Shown: positions 22,157 through 35,492 of the stretch, piece after piece
How positions within the stretch are numbered: position 1 is the first letter of the stretch
Layout of the letters: every line of letters starts with the position of its first letter
Source of the DNA: Candidatus Zixiibacteriota bacterium
GTDB lineage: Bacteria; Zixibacteria; MSB-5A5; UBA10806
DNA length: 45,655 nt
Assembly (NCBI GenBank): GCA_024641335.1
Contig: JAHEDG010000021.1
Span: forward strand, 1-45,655
Direction of reading: 5' to 3'
The notes under the pieces: generated by a model
The model's database searches: none
The model's input: only the letters and a program-made list of their open reading frames with translations
What the model was told of the DNA's origin: nothing
Made by a program: the position numbers and the translations under genes

Positions 22157-23488
22157 ATGATCGGTGTTCATGATGCCGAGACCGCGTTGAAGTGGATCGA
22201 TGACGAGGGGGTCAAATATATTCGTCTTTGGTTTACCGATGTTCTCGGCGTACTGCGTGGTATGACCATAACTCGTTCCGAGATCGAGGATGTTTTCGCC
22301 AACGGTCAGGGTTTTGACGGTTCATCGATCGAGGGTTTTGTTCGGATCGAAGAATCGGATCTTATGGCTCATCCTGATTTTTCCACCTTTACCATTTTCC
22401 CCTGGGCGATCAACGGCGAGCGGATAGCATCGGTATTTTGCGATATCAAGACTCCCTTCGGAGAGCCGTACGAAGGGGATCCGCGGTATGTCTTAAGGCG
22501 GATGGTGGATAGGCTGGCTGCGGACGGTTATACCGCTTATATGGGGCCGGAAATGGAATTTTTCTATTTCAAAAATTCATCCGCTCCGGAGATTATGGAT
22601 AAAGGCGGATACTTCGAATTTTCAACCGTGGAGGAAACCACTCACCTTCGTAAGGCCGCGGTCGGAGCCCTCGAGGGGATCGGGATCAGAGTGGAATGCT
22701 CTCATCACGAGGTAGCTCCCAGCCAGCATGAAATAGATCTGAAATACCAGGACGCTTTGAAGATGGCCGATTACTCCATGCTCTATCGTCTGGTGGTCAA
22801 GGAAAAGGCTTTGTCTATGGGGCATTACGCCACCTTTATGCCCAAGCCGCTTTACGGGGTTAACGGCTCCGGGATGCATGTTCATCAGTCATTGTTCAAA
22901 AGCGACAAGAATGCTTTCTATGAACAGGGCGATTCGTATCATCTTTCTGACCTGGCCCGGAGTTATCTGGCCGGAATATTGGTACATATCAATGAATTCA
23001 CATTGGTTACCAATCAGTGGGTGAATTCCTACAAGAGGCTTGTTCCCGGTTATGAGGCTCCCTGTTATATATCATGGGGACGACGCAACAGATCGTCGCT
23101 GGTCAGGGTTCCGATGTACCAACTGGGAAAAGAGAAATCCACCAGGATCGAGGTACGCAGCCCCGATCCAGCCTGCAATCCGTATCTGGCCTTCGCGGTT
23201 ATGCTGGGGGCAGGTTACGAGGGAGTGAAGAAGGGTTACCCGCTGCCGGATCCGATCGAGGAGAATATTTTCGATATGAACGATCGTCAAAGACGCAGAA
23301 GACGGATCAAAACTTTGCCGGAGTCTTTGTTCGAGGCTTTGGAAGAGTTTAAGAAATCGGATCTCATGAAAGAGATTTTAGGCGAGCATATTTTTGCGGC
23401 CCTGATCCAGAATAAGACCGTCGAATGGGACAAATTCAGAACGGCCGTGACCGACTACGAAGTGAAAAATTATCTTTCGATGCTTTAA
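22157..23488 (+). CDS. glnA: Glutamine synthetase type I (alpha-like, 443 aa)
   Basis: The enzyme makes glutamine from glutamate, ammonia and ATP. Length and motifs fit GSI-alpha: FDGSSIEGF near 53-61, GPEMEFF (metal-binding glutamate), ECSHHEVAPSQHEID, NGSGMHVHQS and the ATP/metal segment RIEVRSPDPACNPYLA. No NLYxLP adenylylation site is present; the corresponding place reads PIEENIFDMN, so covalent control as in enteric bacteria is unlikely. Feedback control is the usual mode for this subtype. A good AAAGGAG site precedes the ATG and an intrinsic terminator follows, so the gene is monocistronic. Confidence 0.96.
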   Translation: MIGVHDAETALKWIDDEGVKYIRLWFTDVLGVLRGMTITRSEIEDVFANGQGFDGSSIEGFVRIEESDLMAHPDFSTFTIFPWAINGERIASVFCDIKTPFGEPYEGDPRYVLRRMVDRLAADGYTAYMGPEMEFFYFKNSSAPEIMDKGGYFEFSTVEETTHLRKAAVGALEGIGIRVECSHHEVAPSQHEIDLKYQDALKMADYSMLYRLVVKEKALSMGHYATFMPKPLYGVNGSGMHVHQSLFKSDKNAFYEQGDSYHLSDLARSYLAGILVHINEFTLVTNQWVNSYKRLVPGYEAPCYISWGRRNRSSLVRVPMYQLGKEKSTRIEVRSPDPACNPYLAFAVMLGAGYEGVKKGYPLPDPIEENIFDMNDRQRRRRRIKTLPESLFEALEEFKKSDLMKEILGEHIFAALIQNKTVEWDKFRTAVTDYEVKNYLSML

Positions 23489-26868: not shown

Positions 26869-27686
26869 ATTACCTCTCCGGAATTGAATACGGGTCCATC
26901 CACGCAGACTCTTTTCAGATGATAATCGCGATTATCATCCGTGGATCCTCTATTTTCGGCAGGACGGGTCTTCACGGCGCAGCCGCTACAGATTCCGTAA
27001 CCGCAGGGCATTAATTCCTCCAGCGATAAATAACCCCGAAGCCGTTTTGCCATGATTATCATATCGATTTTTTTAAGCATCCCGCCGGGGCCGCAGGCGT
27101 AAACTGTTCTTTCAGGATCGTCGGCCAGCTCGGATTGGAGAATATCGACGACAGTTCCTTTCGATCCGGCGCTCCCGTCGTCTGTGCAGGTAATCAATTT
27201 CATATTGAGTCCGGCCAGATTGCCGTCTTCGAAAAGCTCTTTTTTCGTTCTGGCGCCGGAGATGAACGTAATCATTTCGGCAGGATAACCGTTCTCGACC
27301 GATACGCGCGACAGGAAATAGAGCGGGGGAAGCCCCACGCCTCCGGCAGCCATGATCAGCTTGTTTTGTCCGGCGGGCGGATCGAAACCGTTGCCCAGAG
27401 GCCCTAATATATGAACCTTATCTGAAGTATCCGTGTTTGCCAGACGAGATGTCCCGCATCCGAAGATCTTGAATATGATTGAGAAATGTCCTTTCGGTTT
27501 ATCGGCATCATAGATGGAAAACGGTCTGGGCCAGAGGGGGAAATAATCATCGGATGTTCTGATTTGAACGAACTGTCCGGGGCGGGCCAAGCCGGCGATT
27601 TCGGGCGCTTCGAAAGTAAATTTCAAGATCCCCGGCGAGAGAATTTCTTTTTTAATGACCGGGTAATAATCTGAATATTTCCTCAA
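26859..27686 (-). CDS. pyrK: Dihydroorotate dehydrogenase electron-transfer subunit
   Basis: The 275-aa product joins PyrD's FMN to NAD+. It has a ferredoxin-reductase-type FAD domain (PGQFVQIRTS, then LWPRPFSIYD), an NAD domain (AAGGVGLPPLYFLS, then YACGPGGML) and a C-terminal [2Fe-2S] segment with the cysteines of MPCGYGICSGCAVKT and, further on, KRVCVDGPVF. The start is a TTG whose last bases overlap the stop of the upstream lipoprotein gene (TTGA), and it has only a weak ribosome site, so coupling is likely. A charged insert lies between the third and fourth cluster cysteines (PAENRGSTDDNRDYH). Confidence 0.95.
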   Translation of the reverse strand: MRKYSDYYPVIKKEILSPGILKFTFEAPEIAGLARPGQFVQIRTSDDYFPLWPRPFSIYDADKPKGHFSIIFKIFGCGTSRLANTDTSDKVHILGPLGNGFDPPAGQNKLIMAAGGVGLPPLYFLSRVSVENGYPAEMITFISGARTKKELFEDGNLAGLNMKLITCTDDGSAGSKGTVVDILQSELADDPERTVYACGPGGMLKKIDMIIMAKRLRGYLSLEELMPCGYGICSGCAVKTRPAENRGSTDDNRDYHLKRVCVDGPVFNSGEVIWD

Positions 27687-30328
27687 GGCCGTTCTCTGCG
27701 GTCTAAATATGGATTGTTATGGATATTCACTTCGGGTCTTTCGAACGGGATGCTATAGCGGAAATATGAATCGAGCATGGCGAAATCGAGTCTGGACGTA
27801 TCGAACTCTGTCTCCAGCAAGGCGGCGGTGGCCGATGAATCGATGGCTCTTTCACCGGACGGTCCGAGGATCTCGTAATCGGTAATTCTCCCCGAAATAT
27901 CGATCTTGATTTTGAACAGGACTTCACCTTTAAGATCTCTATAGAGAAGCTCTTCGGGATAAAGAAACTCTCCCAGCCGCAAAATAGAAGGGGCTTCGGG
28001 CATATCCATAGCCAGAGATTTCAATGAATCGGCTCTGAACTGATCTTCTTCGGGCCTTTTCTCATTTTCTCCGCGGTCTCGTCTCTGCGGTATTTTCTTT
28101 TCAGGTCTTGATTCCAGTCCTATTCGTATTTTGGCTGCCTTGGAAAACGGCGAATAGGGGTATTTTTTATTTACATTGGCATAAGCCAGGAAGGCCGAAC
28201 TATCGGTAACCCCGATAATCCGGTCGAGTGTCCAGGCTTTGGCGTAAGCCGCCTTGGGAGCGAGATCCGGAAAATTATCGGCTATAAAATCGAAGATGAC
28301 TATGGCCGATTCGGGATAATCGGCCAGGTATATCAGGCTTTCGGCCCTGGCGTAAAGCCCCATGGCGTTCTCCGAGAGATCAAGAGGGTAGTCGAGTATC
28401 TCCGATGCCTGGGCGGCCTGGGGAGATTTAGGATAATCATTTATAAGCCTTCTGAGATAGCGGTTGCCGGAACCGGTATCGTCGCGGCTGAATTCGATAT
28501 TGGCCGAAGCCAAAAGAGCCCTCGGAGAGTAGATCGATTTCGGATGCTCGTCAATCAGCAGTATATATTCCCGAAGAGCGGAATCCGGCCGGTTAAGTTC
28601 ATAGCCGTAAAGTTCAGCCAGGAGGAAGCGGGTCTCTATACCGGACTTGATGATCTCCTGCCTGATACTGTCGTCCCTGGCAATTCTGACAGCTTCCAAG
28701 GAATCCTTGTTGATCAAATTTTCCGCGGGTATCAAGCCTCCGGAGAGACTGTCGATTCGGGAACTGTCGGATTTCGAATTCGAAATATCGGTTATTGTTT
28801 TCAGCGAATCGGAAAGAGAATCAGATGGAACAGCAGGCAGTTCGGGCAAATCGCCTGGTAAAGGCATGGGCGAAACACCCGGCATGATTTCCTCTCCCGA
28901 TTCCGAGGCCAACAATGGATCTATCTCGCCTAAAGATTCGCCCCTTGATCCTCTCATATCTTCCGGGTTTATATTCACTGAGCTGTCCGTTTCGCTTAGG
29001 AGAGTATCTCGGGCTGTCGACGGTTGTTCGATCCGGTCCGGTGTAAAGAGGGTATCGGATGTGTCGGCGAGGACATCGACGCCGGACAATTTGGATTGTT
29101 CGGCGACCCTGGCCGAATCGGCTCTCTGCAGCTGAATGAGATAGGATTCGAGTTTGGCGATCTGGGCCGATTTGGCCAGGGCCAGATTTCTGTAATCCGA
29201 TTTCATATTTTCGGATTGAGCTTTGGAGAATGCGTTCTTGGCCGCCTCGATATCGAAAAGATTGTTCTGATAGATCAAGCCCAGACGATAATAAGCTTCC
29301 GCCGCCTCCTCGGATTTGGGGTTTTCCGAAGTTACCGTGTTATATTCGTCAATTGATTGTTCGATTTCCCCTTTGAGAAAATATCCCTCGGCGATTTTCA
29401 GACGAATCTTCGCCAGCGATGAAAAATATCTTTCGTTTCCGGCCAGATCGATCAGGATTCTCATTCCGGTATCGATGGAGTCGGTTTTCAAGGCCGAAGA
29501 TGCGGACGCCAGGGAAGCGTCGAAATAAAGTTCCATGGACGGTTTATATTTTTTTACCCGGTCGAACGTTTTATAAGCCTTGAGATGATCTCCCAGCCGT
29601 TCCTGGCAGATAGCTGTATAGTACATGGCGGCGGCCGAAGAATCGTTTTTTGGGAATTTCCGGAGATAAAGGGTGAAATGATCGATGGCGCTGGTATAGT
29701 TTTCGTTTTTCATGGCCACTGCGCCTCTGACAAAATAAACATCATCGATGTAGGGGCTTTTGGTATAGTTGTTTTCTATTTCGGAGAAAGCCAGGTTTCC
29801 GAGCTCGATATTACCCAGCTCCAGCTGGCATATTCCCGAATAGAAATAAGCGTCATCGGCATATTTGGAGGATGGATGGTTGATGACCAACTCCTTGAAT
29901 TTTCGGTCGGCCAGAAGATAATCTCCCATATTATAGTAGGATTTGCCGATCAGCCAGAGAGCGTCATCCACCCATTTCGATTCCGGATGGAATTTTAAGA
30001 CCTTGCTGGCCTTCTTAATGGCGTCTTCGTATAAAAGCCGTTCCTGGGCATTGACCTTGGAGATAGTGATATCGCTGCTCTTGATTCGACCTTGCCTGCC
30101 ACCCCCACGAGCGGGGTTGCGTTCGTCGAGCCGCCCGGGAGTTTGATTGCGGCCGCTCTGATTGTTACCGCCGGTCTTGCGATTTACTTCATTCTGTTCC
30201 TGGCTTTTCTCGGCCTGCTCGAATTTTTGTCTGGCCATAAAAAAGGTATTAAAATAGACGCATCCCGCGCCGAATAGGGCCAACAGAACCGCGGACAGCA
30301 AAATCCTCAAAATTCCTTTTCTCGGCAT
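27683..30328 (-). CDS. TPR-repeat lipoprotein with C-terminal TonB-like domain
   Basis: From the ATG at 30328 the product is 881 aa with a clear lipoprotein signal (ILRILLSAVLLALFGAGC, lipid Cys23); the open frame runs 13 codons further up from a TTG with no ribosome site. After a Gln/Asn-rich linker come many tetratricopeptide repeats of the BamD/YbgF style (YYNMGDYLLADRKFKELVINHPSSKYADDA), a low-complexity Ser/Asp-rich section, more repeats, and a C-terminal TonB_C-like domain (GEVLFKIKIDISGRITDYEIL). It is probably anchored to the outer membrane, facing the periplasm, as a scaffold. Its stop overlaps the pyrK start, which joins an envelope protein to the pyrimidine operon. I do not recognise a specific named member. 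Confidence 0.85.
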   Translation of the reverse strand: MPRKGILRILLSAVLLALFGAGCVYFNTFFMARQKFEQAEKSQEQNEVNRKTGGNNQSGRNQTPGRLDERNPARGGGRQGRIKSSDITISKVNAQERLLYEDAIKKASKVLKFHPESKWVDDALWLIGKSYYNMGDYLLADRKFKELVINHPSSKYADDAYFYSGICQLELGNIELGNLAFSEIENNYTKSPYIDDVYFVRGAVAMKNENYTSAIDHFTLYLRKFPKNDSSAAAMYYTAICQERLGDHLKAYKTFDRVKKYKPSMELYFDASLASASSALKTDSIDTGMRILIDLAGNERYFSSLAKIRLKIAEGYFLKGEIEQSIDEYNTVTSENPKSEEAAEAYYRLGLIYQNNLFDIEAAKNAFSKAQSENMKSDYRNLALAKSAQIAKLESYLIQLQRADSARVAEQSKLSGVDVLADTSDTLFTPDRIEQPSTARDTLLSETDSSVNINPEDMRGSRGESLGEIDPLLASESGEEIMPGVSPMPLPGDLPELPAVPSDSLSDSLKTITDISNSKSDSSRIDSLSGGLIPAENLINKDSLEAVRIARDDSIRQEIIKSGIETRFLLAELYGYELNRPDSALREYILLIDEHPKSIYSPRALLASANIEFSRDDTGSGNRYLRRLINDYPKSPQAAQASEILDYPLDLSENAMGLYARAESLIYLADYPESAIVIFDFIADNFPDLAPKAAYAKAWTLDRIIGVTDSSAFLAYANVNKKYPYSPFSKAAKIRIGLESRPEKKIPQRRDRGENEKRPEEDQFRADSLKSLAMDMPEAPSILRLGEFLYPEELLYRDLKGEVLFKIKIDISGRITDYEILGPSGERAIDSSATAALLETEFDTSRLDFAMLDSYFRYSIPFERPEVNIHNNPYLDRRERP

Positions 30329-30434
30329 CCTGAACATATATATATGTTTTCGGTCATTCGGTTCCAAACAATATTTTTTTCGAATGGATCTTTTGGCTGT
30401 CCGGAGCAGAAAAAAGGCGATTGTGTTTTAAGGC

Positions 30435-30471
30435 AAAAAATCAACGGGGGCCAGGCTTGCCGGACCCCCGT
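30435..30471 (-). terminator. Intrinsic terminator of the four-gene membrane operon
   Basis: ACGGGGG (30444-30450) pairs with CCCCCGT (30465-30471). On the minus strand the hairpin is followed by TTGATTTTTT. It ends the operon that starts near 33822. Confidence 0.8.
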
Positions 30472-30494: not shown

Positions 30495-31124
30495 TCAGGC
30501 GACAAAGTAATTTTTCAAGGCGATAAAGTAATCCTTCAGGAAAATCACTCTCTGGACAAGCAGAGCCACGCGTCCCATGACAGTCATGCCGAAACCGGCT
30601 CCGAATCCGATCATCAGGGTGTAGATTCCTATTTTAGAAATAACCCCGAACGTTCCGGTATGCTCCTTGGAGAAAAAGAAATAGAACAGGGCGCACAAAA
30701 CCGCGATAACCACGATGATGTTGTTGATTCCGGCGTAGGTGAGATCGAACGGTACCATAGTGGCGGAGATCTGCTTGAAAACAGAAGTGTACATGTAAAC
30801 CGGGATAGATACGCCGGTTGATATCCCGATATAGAAGGCGATGGGATATCTGGAAATCCAGGAATAATTTTTGGAAAACCTGGTCCACATGGCTAAGCCC
30901 AGCAGTATGGGGATTATATACGCCAATTGCCTGTTTTGCATGGTCAGAATAACTTTGTCAGTGAAGTTGGTGTGGTAAATCAGCATAGTCCAGTACCCGG
31001 CGGCCACCCCGGCGACCAGTCGTTCCGTGAACTTATAAAGCGGATTATCCTTGATCAGAAACGAAAAGACGCAAAGGGTCAAGATAGCCGCCAGTGTATT
31101 CCATAATATTTCAGCTGTCGTCAT
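30495..31124 (-). CDS. Six-helix membrane protein of unknown function (cluster gene 4)
   Basis: The 209-aa product is almost wholly membrane: helices near 8-25, 37-52, 68-82, 91-112, 133-152 and 162-195. Loops are short and no catalytic or binding motif is evident. GYWTMLIYHTNF and YTLMIGFGAGFGMTVMGR look like the conserved places. The start lies nine bases after the stop of the previous gene, with an AGGAGG site overlapping that stop. I do not recognise the family. With its three neighbours it probably builds a membrane complex. Gene order and spacing are the only evidence for this. Confidence 0.8.
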   Translation of the reverse strand: MTTAEILWNTLAAILTLCVFSFLIKDNPLYKFTERLVAGVAAGYWTMLIYHTNFTDKVILTMQNRQLAYIIPILLGLAMWTRFSKNYSWISRYPIAFYIGISTGVSIPVYMYTSVFKQISATMVPFDLTYAGINNIIVVIAVLCALFYFFFSKEHTGTFGVISKIGIYTLMIGFGAGFGMTVMGRVALLVQRVIFLKDYFIALKNYFVA

Positions 31125-31133
31125 GGCTTCCTC

Positions 31134-31976
31134 CTATCTTTTCTTTCGGCCGCGAGTAACGAAATAGCCTATGTTGGACATTACTATGAAAATGAGTATG
31201 ATGGCGTGAGTCAGGGTCTGGTACGGTATCGATGCCAATCCTGTCGTCTCGAATCCGGAAAGCTCCTCATATTCCGCGGCTCCCTTGATTCCGGAGATCA
31301 ATCCGAAAATCTGGCCCGATTGCAGATACTGGTAGTAGTCGGCGCTCATGACCCCTGTAACTCCCAAAGCCACCGGGAATCCGAAACGGCCGTTGCCGTA
31401 GGTGATCCAGAAATCCGCCACGTTGCCGGCTGTAATATCGACCACACCCTTGACATTCATCAGATTCTTGATCCCCTGCATAACCGGCAATGAATCCAGG
31501 GGAACCCCGTAGTAATCCAGCGGGAATGTCACCCTGAAATCAACTCCCATGGTCAGGATTACGATTGCCGGATAAGGACGGTATCCCAGGAAGCAATAGT
31601 CGATACCCGATTTTTTGTCGTATTTTTCGCTGAGTTCGGCCAGCCTGGTTTCGGCCATAGCGACCCCGAACTGAGAAAGACACCCGACGACCACCTTCAA
31701 ATCCTTGGAGAAGGCGTGATTCAGAATAGCGTAGGCCATAGGATCGAGCTCGGCCAAAGCCGACGGATCATAGTCGATCCCCAGGTAGAAATAATCTCCC
31801 GCTTCCATACGGTTGATAAAATTGAATACTTTTTTAACTTCTGGTGTGGTGGCCACAGGCACCTGGAAAGGAATCACGGTCGGAATTATGACCACGATGG
31901 CGATAGATAGATAAACCCATCGCCTGTCCAGATTCATTACTTTATCCCAAAAATCCACGGCGTTCTCCTTAATCAT
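31134..31976 (-). CDS. Membrane protein with large extracytoplasmic domain (cluster gene 3)
   Basis: The 280-aa product has one membrane helix near the start (about 19-38) and one at the end (about 252-272), with a soluble alpha/beta domain of about 210 residues between, most likely outside the cytoplasm. The domain has an ordered pattern (FYLGIDYDPSALAELDPMA, AILNHAFSKDLKVVVGC, IDYCFLGYRPYPAIVILTMG) that looks like a nucleotide- or ligand-binding-type fold without a P-loop. No known family is recognised. Its start overlaps the stop of the gene before it by eight bases (ATGATTAA), so the two are translated together. Confidence 0.8.
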   Translation of the reverse strand: MIKENAVDFWDKVMNLDRRWVYLSIAIVVIIPTVIPFQVPVATTPEVKKVFNFINRMEAGDYFYLGIDYDPSALAELDPMAYAILNHAFSKDLKVVVGCLSQFGVAMAETRLAELSEKYDKKSGIDYCFLGYRPYPAIVILTMGVDFRVTFPLDYYGVPLDSLPVMQGIKNLMNVKGVVDITAGNVADFWITYGNGRFGFPVALGVTGVMSADYYQYLQSGQIFGLISGIKGAAEYEELSGFETTGLASIPYQTLTHAIILIFIVMSNIGYFVTRGRKKR

Positions 31977-32586
31977 GACCCATATAGGTTCGTTCGATTC
32001 CCAGGATGATTTTAATGCAGGTAGCGATAGCCCCCAGACCGACCCCTATGGTTATAGCCCTCTTGGCCGCCATATTCGGCACCGCTAATATCCATCCGAC
32101 CGCTGTCTGGTTAACTTCGGAGATCGGGCCGAGAGGAATGAGCCGCAGCATAATGATAAAGGCGGTCAGCAAAAGGATTGTCGCCAGAGCGGTTCTGGCC
32201 CTGAAGGCTCTATAGGCGGCGCTGGCGACATAGAATGCCAGCAGCGCGAAGATCGTGGCTTGAATGGGGATCAGGATATTGTTGAAAAGATCCATATGCA
32301 GATGCCCCGCTTCCAGCCACTCTCTTTTCAATCCGGTGAAGACCATGATGAAATAGCCGAAAAGGAGTGTTCCGGCATAGAATGCCTCTTTCGGATTTTT
32401 CAGTTTCTTGAATTCCGTTCTGAGCAGGCTCCATATACCCAGGGCCAGGGCGAAGATCCCTACTACGATAACCCAGTCATTCGCGTATGTAAAAAGCCAC
32501 TCGGATTCCTCCGAGGGTACGAAGTACTGGATCAGCATTACAATGCCGGAAATCAGGACGAAATATATTGGAATTTGTTTTTTCAT
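31969..32586 (-). CDS. Six-helix membrane protein of unknown function (cluster gene 2)
   Basis: The 205-aa product has about six membrane helices (near 5-23, 38-56, 69-87, 104-128, 132-153 and 174-196). The central loop LKREWLEAGHLHMDLFNNI contains two histidines and acidic residues and may be functional. No family is recognised. It starts 16 bases after the previous stop and overlaps the next start. It resembles cluster gene 4 in size and helix number but shows no clear sequence identity to it by eye. Confidence 0.8.
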   Translation of the reverse strand: MKKQIPIYFVLISGIVMLIQYFVPSEESEWLFTYANDWVIVVGIFALALGIWSLLRTEFKKLKNPKEAFYAGTLLFGYFIMVFTGLKREWLEAGHLHMDLFNNILIPIQATIFALLAFYVASAAYRAFRARTALATILLLTAFIIMLRLIPLGPISEVNQTAVGWILAVPNMAAKRAITIGVGLGAIATCIKIILGIERTYMGHD

Positions 32587-32601
32587 AATCTGACTTCGCC
32601 T

Positions 32602-33822
32602 TTAAAGGTTTACGGTTACCATATCTTTAATGAAAGATACGTTCATCGAAATCAACACCGCTCCGATGAATAGAATGACCATCAATATCGCTTTGGCCCA
32701 GTCCTGGGCCTTGAGAGTGCCTACCTGTACCGGTTCTTTGGAAAGATAGGCGCTGGCGGCGTAAAGCTCTTCGCCGATCAGGGTATAATCGGTGGCGGCG
32801 ATGAAGAACGGAAGCTGAGAAATCTGGTCGGTGCCGGAGATCTGAATCGATCCGGCAATGTTTCCGGTTTCGGCCAGGATCAGCGATTCGGCGTGGAAGA
32901 CGCCCATATAGAAATTGGTGGCCGTTTTTTCACGAAGCATGATACCGTTAACAGCGGCCACATACGGAAATTGCATAGCCGTTTCGTAAGAGATATTATC
33001 GGGATTGTATATATCGGGTCGGCCGGCTTCGAGATACGCGGTGCGCACTGTTTCTTGAGCTACGGCGAACATTACCGGGTCGTTGACCGGAACCAAAACC
33101 CTGGTCTGGTATTCGGCGGTCAGTTTGGCCACTCGCGCGAGAATGGTAAACCCGGCGATAGTGGCGATATCTCCGGCCGTTCCTGTTCCCAGGACGAATA
33201 ATATCGGTCTGCCCATTTCCGTCGCCCGGCCGATGGCCTCGTCCACCGCGTTGATACCGGCCAGAGGACGAACATAATAATCGGTCCCTTTGCGGGCCAT
33301 GAATATAAAATAGACGACTAAAACCCAGAATATTATAACTCCGATCAAAATCGGAATTTTCCCGACATGAAACCAGTTTTCCATCGGCTGTCCCGATCCG
33401 GCCTCGGAGTACTCCGAATAAACGCCTCCTGAAGCCATGGCCCGAACCTTGTAGTAATAGGTTTTTTCCGTGATCAGGAATCCGGGATTGGGCAAATCGT
33501 TGATCCTGGGAGAATCATCCTTGTCCTCATACTGGCCGGTTCCCTTGACACTGAGACCGCGAAACACATATTCCCCGTCGGCCTGGTCGGCTCGATAAAC
33601 CTCATAAGCCAGCACGTTGTCTTTTCCCCCGCCGTCATCGGCAGAGAGAGCCCAATTGACCAGCACGCCATGGCCGGTATCGTTCGGTCTGTCGACAACC
33701 ACGATGTTTGTGGGAGGCGCCGGGGAAGGTGGTCCGATGGTATCCTGCACCGCTTCCTGAGCCCCGGCCGTTCCAAAAATCAGCAAAAGAACGAACAGGG
33801 ACATCAAAAGCTTCCTTGCCAT
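32602..33822 (-). CDS. FN3-domain membrane protein, DUF6754-like (cluster gene 1)
   Basis: I take the ATG at 33822, where GAAGGAG lies five bases before; the frame extends 14 codons further without support. The product is 406 aa: signal peptide (1-20, ending TAGA), a fibronectin type III domain (about 33-150; NIVVVDRPNDTGHGVLVNWALS, AYEVYRADQADGEY, YYYKVRAM), a membrane helix (about 160-182), a soluble domain (about 190-370) with RPILFVLGTGTAGDIATIAGF, and a C-terminal helix. The soluble part reminds me of the family labelled DUF6754; that is from memory. It is the first gene of four that share strand, tight spacing and membrane character. Confidence 0.82.
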   Translation of the reverse strand: MARKLLMSLFVLLLIFGTAGAQEAVQDTIGPPSPAPPTNIVVVDRPNDTGHGVLVNWALSADDGGGKDNVLAYEVYRADQADGEYVFRGLSVKGTGQYEDKDDSPRINDLPNPGFLITEKTYYYKVRAMASGGVYSEYSEAGSGQPMENWFHVGKIPILIGVIIFWVLVVYFIFMARKGTDYYVRPLAGINAVDEAIGRATEMGRPILFVLGTGTAGDIATIAGFTILARVAKLTAEYQTRVLVPVNDPVMFAVAQETVRTAYLEAGRPDIYNPDNISYETAMQFPYVAAVNGIMLREKTATNFYMGVFHAESLILAETGNIAGSIQISGTDQISQLPFFIAATDYTLIGEELYAASAYLSKEPVQVGTLKAQDWAKAILMVILFIGAVLISMNVSFIKDMVTVNL

Positions 33823-34002
33823 AATGACTCCTTCTCGAAATGAAATTGCTATCTTATCTGTCATTAATTATCCGGATTGATCTTTTTTGCGCAATCTGGC
33901 CTGAATACATAGGGCTAAAATATGTTATTGGCATTTAAATTGAAATATAAATTTTCACTCCATTAAAATCCGCGATCCTCTGGAATAATAGATCCATGTT
34001 AG

Positions 34003-34053: not shown

Positions 34054-34094
34054 GTAATCCGGATGATAATCGAATTCGATAAGGATGGCGCGTG

Positions 34095-35492
34095 ATGATC
34101 GAGAAATTTCTGAAGATGGTCAAGGATAAGAAATACGAGCAGGTCGATTTCAAATTCACCGACATAAAAGGAGGCTGGAGACATCTGACCATTCCGGCCG
34201 AAAAACTCTCGGAGAAGACATTTACCGACGGTATCGGCATCGACGGTTCCTCGATAGGATTTCTCTCTGTAAAGGCCGGCGATATGATCATCATTCCGGA
34301 TATATCGTTCTATTTCGAAGATCCGTTCTGGGATGACCCTACGATTTCGATCGTGGCCAACGTATGCGAGGTCAACCCGACGGAGCCTCATGAACGGGAT
34401 CCCAGGTTCACTGCCCGAAAAGCGGTTGAAAGGTTGAGCAAAGCTCTGCCTGGTGTCGAGGCTTTCATGGGGCCGGAGTTCGAGTTTTATCTTTTTGACG
34501 AGGTTCGATACGATCAAGCTCCCAATCACGGTTTTTATTTTCTGGATGCTGAAGAGGCCGAATGGAATTCCGGTACGGAAACCGATTTGAGCCTCGGCCA
34601 TCAGATCCGTTATAAGGAGGGGTATCACGCCGCTCCTCCGCAGGATAAGACTTATGATATTCGAGCCAGGATCTGCAAGCATCTGAAGAACGTCGGTATC
34701 CAGGTGAAATATCATCATCACGAAGTCGGAGGAGCGTCGCAGCAGGAGATAGAAACATCGTTCGCCTCTCTCATGGAGATGGCCGATAAATCGCAGTTGG
34801 TCAAATATATAATCAAGAATACGGCCGCGCGCTATGGCAAGTCGGCCAGTTTCATGCCCAAGCCGCTTTTCATGGAGCCGGGTTCGGGTTTGCATGTGCA
34901 CCAGTTTCTGTCCCGCGACGGACGATCTATTTTTTATGATCTCGATAAACCGCTAAAGCTCTCCGACACCGGCCGTCATTATCTCGGGGGGATTCTAAAG
35001 CACGCCCCTTCTCTCTTGGCATTTACCAGCCCGTCGACCAATTCTTTCAAACGGCTGGTCCCCGGATTCGAGGCTCCGGTCGGGATAAATTATTCAGTGG
35101 GCAACCGGACTGCGGCGGTGCGGATACCGGGCTATATAAAAGATCCCGACGTCATGCGGATAGAGTTCCGGCCTCCTGACGGTACGGCTAATATCTATCT
35201 GGCTTTCGCCGCCATGCTGATGGCCGGTTTGGATGGTATTGAGAATAAAATCGATCCCGGTGAACCGTTGGAAGAAATCTCCGGTCAGACAGAAGCCGGC
35301 AAGCCCCGAATGCTCCCATATTCTCTGGCGCGGACTTTCGAGGCCCTGGAGGATGATAAGGAATTTTTAACCAGGGACGGCGTTTTCTCCGACGAGTTGA
35401 TAGATACCTGGACGAAACTCAAGAAAAGCGAGATGGACCAGGTCAAGGTTCGCCCTCATCCCTGGGAATTCAGATTGTATTATGACGCTTAA
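34095..35492 (+). CDS. glnA: Glutamine synthetase type I, second paralogue (466 aa)
   Basis: The product is a full-length GSI: IDGSSIGFLSVKAGDMI, the metal segment GPEFEFYLFD, the nucleotide-side YHHHEVGGASQQEIE, GSGLHVHQFLSRDG, and RIEFRPPDGTANIYLA. The C-terminal HPWEFRLYYDA matches the longer bacterial enzymes ending in HPYEF-x-LYY. I see no NLYxLP adenylylation site. I choose the ATG at 34095; a GTG directly before it (34092) is possible. It differs strongly from the 443-aa enzyme at 22157, so the cell has two isozymes. Roles cannot be separated from sequence. Confidence 0.95.
   Translation: MIEKFLKMVKDKKYEQVDFKFTDIKGGWRHLTIPAEKLSEKTFTDGIGIDGSSIGFLSVKAGDMIIIPDISFYFEDPFWDDPTISIVANVCEVNPTEPHERDPRFTARKAVERLSKALPGVEAFMGPEFEFYLFDEVRYDQAPNHGFYFLDAEEAEWNSGTETDLSLGHQIRYKEGYHAAPPQDKTYDIRARICKHLKNVGIQVKYHHHEVGGASQQEIETSFASLMEMADKSQLVKYIIKNTAARYGKSASFMPKPLFMEPGSGLHVHQFLSRDGRSIFYDLDKPLKLSDTGRHYLGGILKHAPSLLAFTSPSTNSFKRLVPGFEAPVGINYSVGNRTAAVRIPGYIKDPDVMRIEFRPPDGTANIYLAFAAMLMAGLDGIENKIDPGEPLEEISGQTEAGKPRMLPYSLARTFEALEDDKEFLTRDGVFSDELIDTWTKLKKSEMDQVKVRPHPWEFRLYYDA

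Follow-up and report, generated by a model that had tools for sequence, protein, structure and literature searches.

Described families resemble several parts of the system analysed here. GlmL, the methylaspartate mutase accessory protein of the GlmL/MutL family (PF13941), is presumed to reactivate B12 mutases, and ECF-type transporters have one shared energising module and several membrane modules per cell. We examined a four-gene cassette, g1 to g4, on the − strand at positions 30495–33822 of a stretch of 45,655 nucleotides (contig JAHEDG010000021.1 of assembly GCA_024641335.1, from a Candidatus Zixiibacteriota bacterium; the whole stretch is hereafter referred to as the window). Its first product belongs to DUF6754 (PF20539), a Pfam domain of unknown function. 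New here are the cytoplasmic partners of this cassette, c0 and c1, which are absent from the window and reside elsewhere in its genome. Together, the six parts look like an ancient, unnamed machine of the cell envelope.

The cassette in the window

All four open reading frames (ORFs) were present when the sequence and the ORFs were checked. The cassette has the following features, all on the − strand.

32602..33822, −, g1: signal peptide, extracytoplasmic FN3 domain, transmembrane (TM) helix, cytoplasmic alpha/beta DUF6754 domain and TM helix, as predicted from PF20539, a structural model and hydropathy
31969..32586, −, g2: protein of six predicted TM helices without a named family, N- and C-termini inside, from hydropathy and conserved residues
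31134..31976, −, g3: TM helix, extracytoplasmic Rossmann-like domain and TM helix, both termini inside, as predicted from a model and topology
30495..31124, −, g4: protein of six (perhaps seven) predicted TM helices with invariant E34, Q118, R185 and R192, from hydropathy and alignment
about 30444..30471, −, intrinsic terminator: hairpin, then T-run, from folding and sequence
33828..33833, −, Shine-Dalgarno sequence AAGGAG of g1, from sequence

A gap of 15 bases separates g1 from g2, g2 and g3 overlap by 8 bases, and 9 bases lie between g3 and g4; the ORF coordinates thus agree with the tight packing (9–15 base gaps and an 8-base overlap) given in a preliminary description of this DNA. The intrinsic terminator that it placed at the end was also recovered, as a hairpin of −21.9 kcal/mol (z = −2.0, RNA folding) followed by TTTTTT. 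A simple terminator scan of the window did not list this hairpin, probably owing to the mismatches in its stem. Besides the ATG at 33822, g1 has an alternative in-frame ATG at 33864; we favour 33822 as the start because AAGGAG lies just upstream of it.

Conservation and inheritance of the cassette

A search of GTDB genomes yielded at least 576 confirmed relatives, of which 80 were kept. These represent metagenome-assembled genomes labelled Zixibacteria, WOR-3/Stahlbacteria, Cloacimonadota, Latescibacterota, Fermentibacteria, Eisenbacteria, Coatesbacteria, Edwardsbacteria, Poribacteria, Planctomycetota (including Scalindua), Armatimonadota, CSSED10-310, TA06 and Hyd24-12. We located g2, g3 and g4 downstream of g1 with profiles made from the paralogues in the window genome, and found the g1–g4 module in the same gene order in more than a dozen phyla, mostly uncultured. 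The 130 complete g1-g2-g3-g4 cassettes, which come from Zixibacteria, WOR-3, Planctomycetota, Armatimonadota, Poribacteria, Latescibacterota, Cloacimonadota and other phyla, have gaps of 12, 1 and 2 bases at the median, and since order and short gaps recur throughout them, the tight packing in the window is not a product of chance. A complete cassette surrounded 112 of the 123 g1 genes with room downstream; the four genes, which the preliminary description had proposed to look for together across genomes, are thus nearly always neighbours.

PF20539 was present in all 58 related genomes, in two to six copies each, and in 0 of 14 control genomes. Four complete cassettes of identical order occur in the window genome itself: besides the one in the window, contig 55 carries a tandem pair and contig 44 a single copy. 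Tandem runs of two to four cassettes are found in many genomes, and the larger cassette families of Zixibacteria each occur about once per locus. When distance matrices of the subunits were compared over 117 cassettes, the correlations between g1–g4 were 0.71–0.90 (r); shuffling the paralogues within a locus gave averages of 0.25–0.35 and maxima of 0.45–0.58. These results show that cassettes are inherited as units, a pattern that is expected of separate, specific complexes, although co-inheritance alone is no proof of a physical complex.

Other genes near the cassettes were also recorded. In the window genome, a gene for a protein with two CBS domains (L006:9003-9452) separates the two tandem cassettes, and its relatives are found near cassettes in loci L038 and L070. 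In WOR-3 (L072, L073, L083 and L095), g4 is followed by a DUF4388 gene and two genes that are roadblock-like by eye (no Pfam match), behind which two small membrane proteins are encoded; this stretch may be linked to GTPase-type regulation. Pyruvate phosphate dikinase-like, 3-dehydroquinate synthase, MotA/ExbB-like, Wzi and transglutaminase-like genes were rejected as partners, being lineage-local neighbours.

The cytoplasmic partners c0 and c1

Clustering of the cassette neighbours revealed two further genes, c0 and c1, both of which recur directly upstream of g1. The product of c1 has about 600 residues and matches PF13941 of the MutL/GlmL superfamily over 470 residues (E 9e-129), with a weak similarity to hydantoinase/oxoprolinase as well. 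Its ASKHA motifs are kept in 26 (phosphate-1), 24 (phosphate-2) and 26 (adenosine) of 27 sequences. By these sequence criteria, c1 is an ASKHA ATPase of the MutL/GlmL superfamily whose nucleotide-binding motifs are intact. The c0 protein, of about 375 residues, belongs to no named family. Three segments could be discerned in it, all weakly: a barrel-sandwich-like start (the first 130 residues), an RraA-like middle and a KOW-like end; its matches to RnfC_N (E 0.09) and biotin_lipoyl (E 0.003) were weak and below cut-off. No relation of c0 to g1 or g3 was detected.

The order c1-c0-g1 is kept in Planctomycetota, Zixibacteria, CSSED10-310 and Armatimonadota, and c0 alone stands upstream of g1 in Latescibacterota and Coatesbacteria. 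The uninterrupted arrangement c1-c0-g1-g2-g3-g4 is common in Planctomycetota (L152, L153, L160–L163 and L166). Unlike the cassette, c0 and c1 are nearly always present in single copy. Median identities were 63% for c1, 50% for DUF6754 and 48% for c0, as compared with 33–38% for g2–g4. The cytoplasmic face is thus the most conserved, which suggests ATP-dependent coupling via DUF6754 as the constant part; specificity would then lie in the varying ectodomains and the duplicated cassettes. With c0 and c1 added, what had appeared to be a pure membrane complex becomes one that is probably coupled to a cytoplasmic ATPase.

Presence of the cassette and of its partners was then compared genome by genome. 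Among 149 Planctomycetota genomes, g1 was present in 41, c0 in 37 and c1 in 39, with phi coefficients of 0.90 for g1/c0 (p 6e-28), 0.86 for g1/c1 and 0.93 for c0/c1. The 121 Armatimonadota genomes comprised 101 with both g1 and c0, 2 with g1 only, 7 with c0 only and 11 with neither (p 2e-9). In the window's class, g1 was found in 58, c0 in 55 and c1 in 56 of the 58 genomes, and among 30 cassette-bearing genomes of assorted phyla, c0 was matched in 28, strongly and over its full length in 27. The co-occurrence holds in separate phyla, with the genes often unlinked. The gene set must do something basic, because its order is kept in more than a dozen phyla, it is present in every genome of the class that we examined and its cytoplasmic parts are about 50–63% identical between phyla.

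The c1 gene of the window genome lies near cytochrome c oxidase-type and haem A synthase-like genes (L140:2528-9521). A second, distant c1-like gene (43–46% identity) was noted in G005:C159, G020:C50 and G033:C284, in frames of about 870–950 residues, and the Fermentibacteria genomes G062 and G063 have extra c0-like matches within long open frames of about 930 residues.

Predicted architecture of the membrane subunits

The g1 protein is a member of DUF6754 (E 3.3e-111; 371 bits against a gathering cut-off of 27; 255 of 257 positions). Its structural model (predicted local distance difference test, pLDDT, 89) contains an FN3 domain at residues 31–150, for which a neogenin FN3 domain was the best match (model residues 31–147, Z 13.3, root-mean-square deviation (rmsd) 1.8 over 98), and FN3 matches filled the Foldseek and VIA output for the whole model. 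The Pfam fn3 sequence model gave no score on this protein. Family-averaged hydropathy and the positive-inside rule, which we used for the topology of all four subunits, predict a signal peptide, FN3 outside, a TM helix with a K/R-rich flank behind it, DUF6754 inside and a second TM helix. The FN3-containing, anchored character proposed for g1 is thereby upheld. A weak YqiJ_N match was discarded, as it spans one TM helix only.

The two faces of g1 are conserved to different degrees among its relatives. The ectodomain is variable: it may be absent, consist of one or two FN3 domains, or extend to about 700 residues without a Pfam match. DUF6754 has dozens of invariant residues, including a GRATEMG stretch and an AESLxLAETG stretch; one near-invariant cysteine occurs in g1 in the 117-cassette alignment. 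The longest g1 proteins that we noted, of 974 (L124:3859-6783) and 911 (L111:418-3153) residues, have ectodomains of about 650–700 residues without a Pfam match. FN3-less g1 genes (about 290–305 residues) occur without g2–g4 behind them at L044:7605-8471 and L057:6100-7017, and others head a separate full cassette family (L039, L040, L047, L049, L051, L053 and L056). In an armatimonad (L112:4052-7236), two consecutive DUF6754 genes precede one g2-g3-g4 set, and similar pairs are found among other Armatimonadota.

Neither a Pfam family nor a credible NCBIfam one was found for g2, g3 and g4; as anticipated, these scans name g1 alone. The preliminary description counted two six-helix proteins. 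Six TM helices with both termini inside are predicted for g2, whereas g4, with its N-terminus outside, has six or perhaps seven, so that the count stands for g2 and is less certain for g4. In the 117 cassettes, S122, G181 and R199 of g2 are invariant and R126, R176 and E198 near-invariant. A profile comparison detected no relation between g2 and g4, and no conserved cysteine was found in g2, g3 or g4 in the 117-cassette alignment.

In g3, the predicted topology (a soluble domain outside, between two TM helices with both ends inside) and the model (pLDDT 92.7, Rossmann-like) accord with the large soluble domain between two helices described earlier. The nearest solved folds are DUF1890 and the CODH epsilon subunit, both soluble methanogen proteins (best Z 10.1, rmsd 3.1, 138–146 residues, 7–8% identity; VIA); at such Z values, this likeness reflects a common arrangement of the modelled fold and tells little about function. 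Foldseek with the g3 model returned general Rossmann folds only, with no match below E 0.001, and in neither comparison did the model match a known transporter or secretion system, a point that the preliminary description had left to structure prediction. A sequence-profile search of PDB chains gave nothing for g2 and g4 and nothing credible for g3. In both the g1 and the g3 model, strands and helices follow one another in the same order, with a TM helix at the end, and the two also resemble each other in a YLS...LLGxxKG stretch; profile comparison gave a probability of 4–8% for homology of their alpha/beta domains, which we hence do not claim.

Taken together, the gene order across phyla, the inheritance as units and the complementary predicted topologies strongly support, at the level of sequence, the multi-subunit membrane complex that had been surmised for g1–g4.

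Other genes of the window

The window contains two different glutamine synthetase-like genes (22157-23488 and 34092-35492), the second divergent from the cassette. After the cassette come a large TPR-repeat lipoprotein-like gene with a TonB-like C-terminus (27683-30367) and then a pyrK, pyrD and pyrF-like pyrimidine cluster.

A model for the six-part system and its alternatives

The composition of the system, that is, its gene content, order, co-inheritance and co-occurrence, is well supported. As to how it works, we tentatively favour, at somewhat less than even confidence, an inner-membrane complex of g1–g4 served by a shared, ATP-driven cytoplasmic module of c1 and c0. In such a complex, g2 and g4 would form the polytopic membrane core, to which g3 would contribute its extracytoplasmic Rossmann-like domain; g1 would cross the membrane, with its variable FN3 ectodomain outside and the extremely conserved DUF6754 inside. 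Binding and hydrolysis of ATP by c1, relayed by c0 to DUF6754, might then drive or gate the core. The one to six cassette versions of a cell would share the single-copy c1 and c0, and paralogous cassettes with differing ectodomains could serve different substrates or sites, like modular transporters that share one energising unit. The task may be transport/export or envelope assembly; the folds come from predicted models and the topologies from hydropathy.

Several points weigh against this model. In the window genome, neither the single c0 nor the single c1 is linked to a cassette; both are on other contigs. A few genomes that carry a cassette lack c0 or c1, and in seven Armatimonadota c0 was found but g1 was not, although many of these assemblies are probably incomplete. 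The p-values of the co-occurrence overstate independence because presence and absence follow lineages through shared ancestry. Chaperones, kinases and filament formers are also found among ASKHA proteins, and it is by inference that we arrive at the physical complex, the ATP coupling and the task, with binding, hydrolysis and substrate included.

The alternative that survives best, albeit an unlikely one, is a sensory or signalling complex in which FN3 and the Rossmann domain of g3 bind a ligand or surface and DUF6754 signals to the ASKHA/adaptor pair. A variable ectodomain combined with a nearly invariant cytoplasmic domain in g1, and the DUF4388 protein directly after the cassette in WOR-3, would suit a receptor; two polytopic subunits of fixed architecture, however, exceed what a receptor needs, and the clustered neighbours included no recurrent partner of the kinase, cyclase, DNA-binding or chemotaxis kind. 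We regard as still less probable a platform for the assembly or export of a surface structure, comparable in its working to the PilM/GspL components of type IV pilus and type II secretion machines. The layout of a cytoplasmic ASKHA protein with bitopic and polytopic membrane subunits is shared, and several cassettes per genome would fit, but no secretion ATPase, pilin or secretin recurs beside the cassettes, and c1 matches PF13941 and hydantoinase families and no PilM/GspL family (PilN/PilO-type partners were not searched for across genomes).

It is more doubtful again that c0/c1 are a metabolic enzyme or an enzyme-reactivating chaperone whose substrate is imported by g1–g4. The relation of c1 to GlmL, and its weak one to hydantoinase/oxoprolinase, points in this direction; against it, c1 scores too low for the GlmL, Or-4 and GlmL-family models of NCBIfam, no mutase subunit gene is recurrent nearby (neighbours were clustered and not all named), and one c0/c1 for up to six divergent cassettes would be odd for a single substrate. 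An Rnf/Nqr-type pump that moves ions by redox energy, in which c0 would be the RnfC/NqrA-like subunit, is scarcely credible despite the weak RnfC_N and biotin_lipoyl similarity of c0 and the six-TM subunits, because g2–g4 have no conserved cysteine, g1 has a single near-invariant one and no component matches an Fe-S (iron-sulfur) or flavin family.

Comparison with known systems

No system combining these parts was found in Pfam, NCBIfam, PADLOC, PDB or the literature searched; g2, g4, c0 and DUF6754 by itself were compared by sequence only, so that a distant known relative may exist. Against the PADLOC anti-phage defence models, all six proteins were negative at E 0.01. We found no paper on DUF6754/PF20539 and nothing relevant on PF13941 or the combination, most subscription literature being outside the search. 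The DUF6754 label covers the g1 domain alone, to which the present analysis adds the cassette, the partners and the topology.

With the GlmL/MutL family, c1 shares the 470-residue match and the ASKHA ATP-binding motifs. It differs from GlmL in its scores, which are 234.6 against a cut-off of 475 for GlmL (NF040745), 225.6 against 600 for Or-4 and 176.7 against 204 for glmL_fam, and in about 120 additional residues at the C-terminus. Its recurrent neighbours are c0 and g1–g4, and no recurrent GlmS/GlmE cluster was seen among the neighbours that were named. Parts of the first 130 residues of c0 weakly resemble the barrel-sandwich domains of RnfC/NqrA and of RNA polymerase beta-prime; unlike RnfC/NqrA, c0 has no Fe-S or SLBB domain that we could find.

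We consider it possible, with slightly more reserve than for the model itself, that these genes represent an undescribed, ancient class of ATP-driven envelope machine, in which an ASKHA-type ATPase and a barrel-sandwich adaptor are combined with four-subunit membrane modules that can be exchanged. Such machines would occur in the whole Zixibacteria class to which the window belongs and be widespread in Planctomycetota, Armatimonadota and many phyla without cultured members. If so, much of uncultured bacterial diversity would share an envelope machine, and the carriers among Planctomycetota and Armatimonadota, assembled in one or few large contigs, would make it testable in possibly cultivable bacteria. 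Single-copy c1/c0 alongside one to six cassettes predicts a shared ATPase with exchangeable membrane modules. This is the shared-energiser layout of the ECF-type transporters, to which we claim no sequence relation, with an ATPase of the ASKHA class in place of an ABC one.

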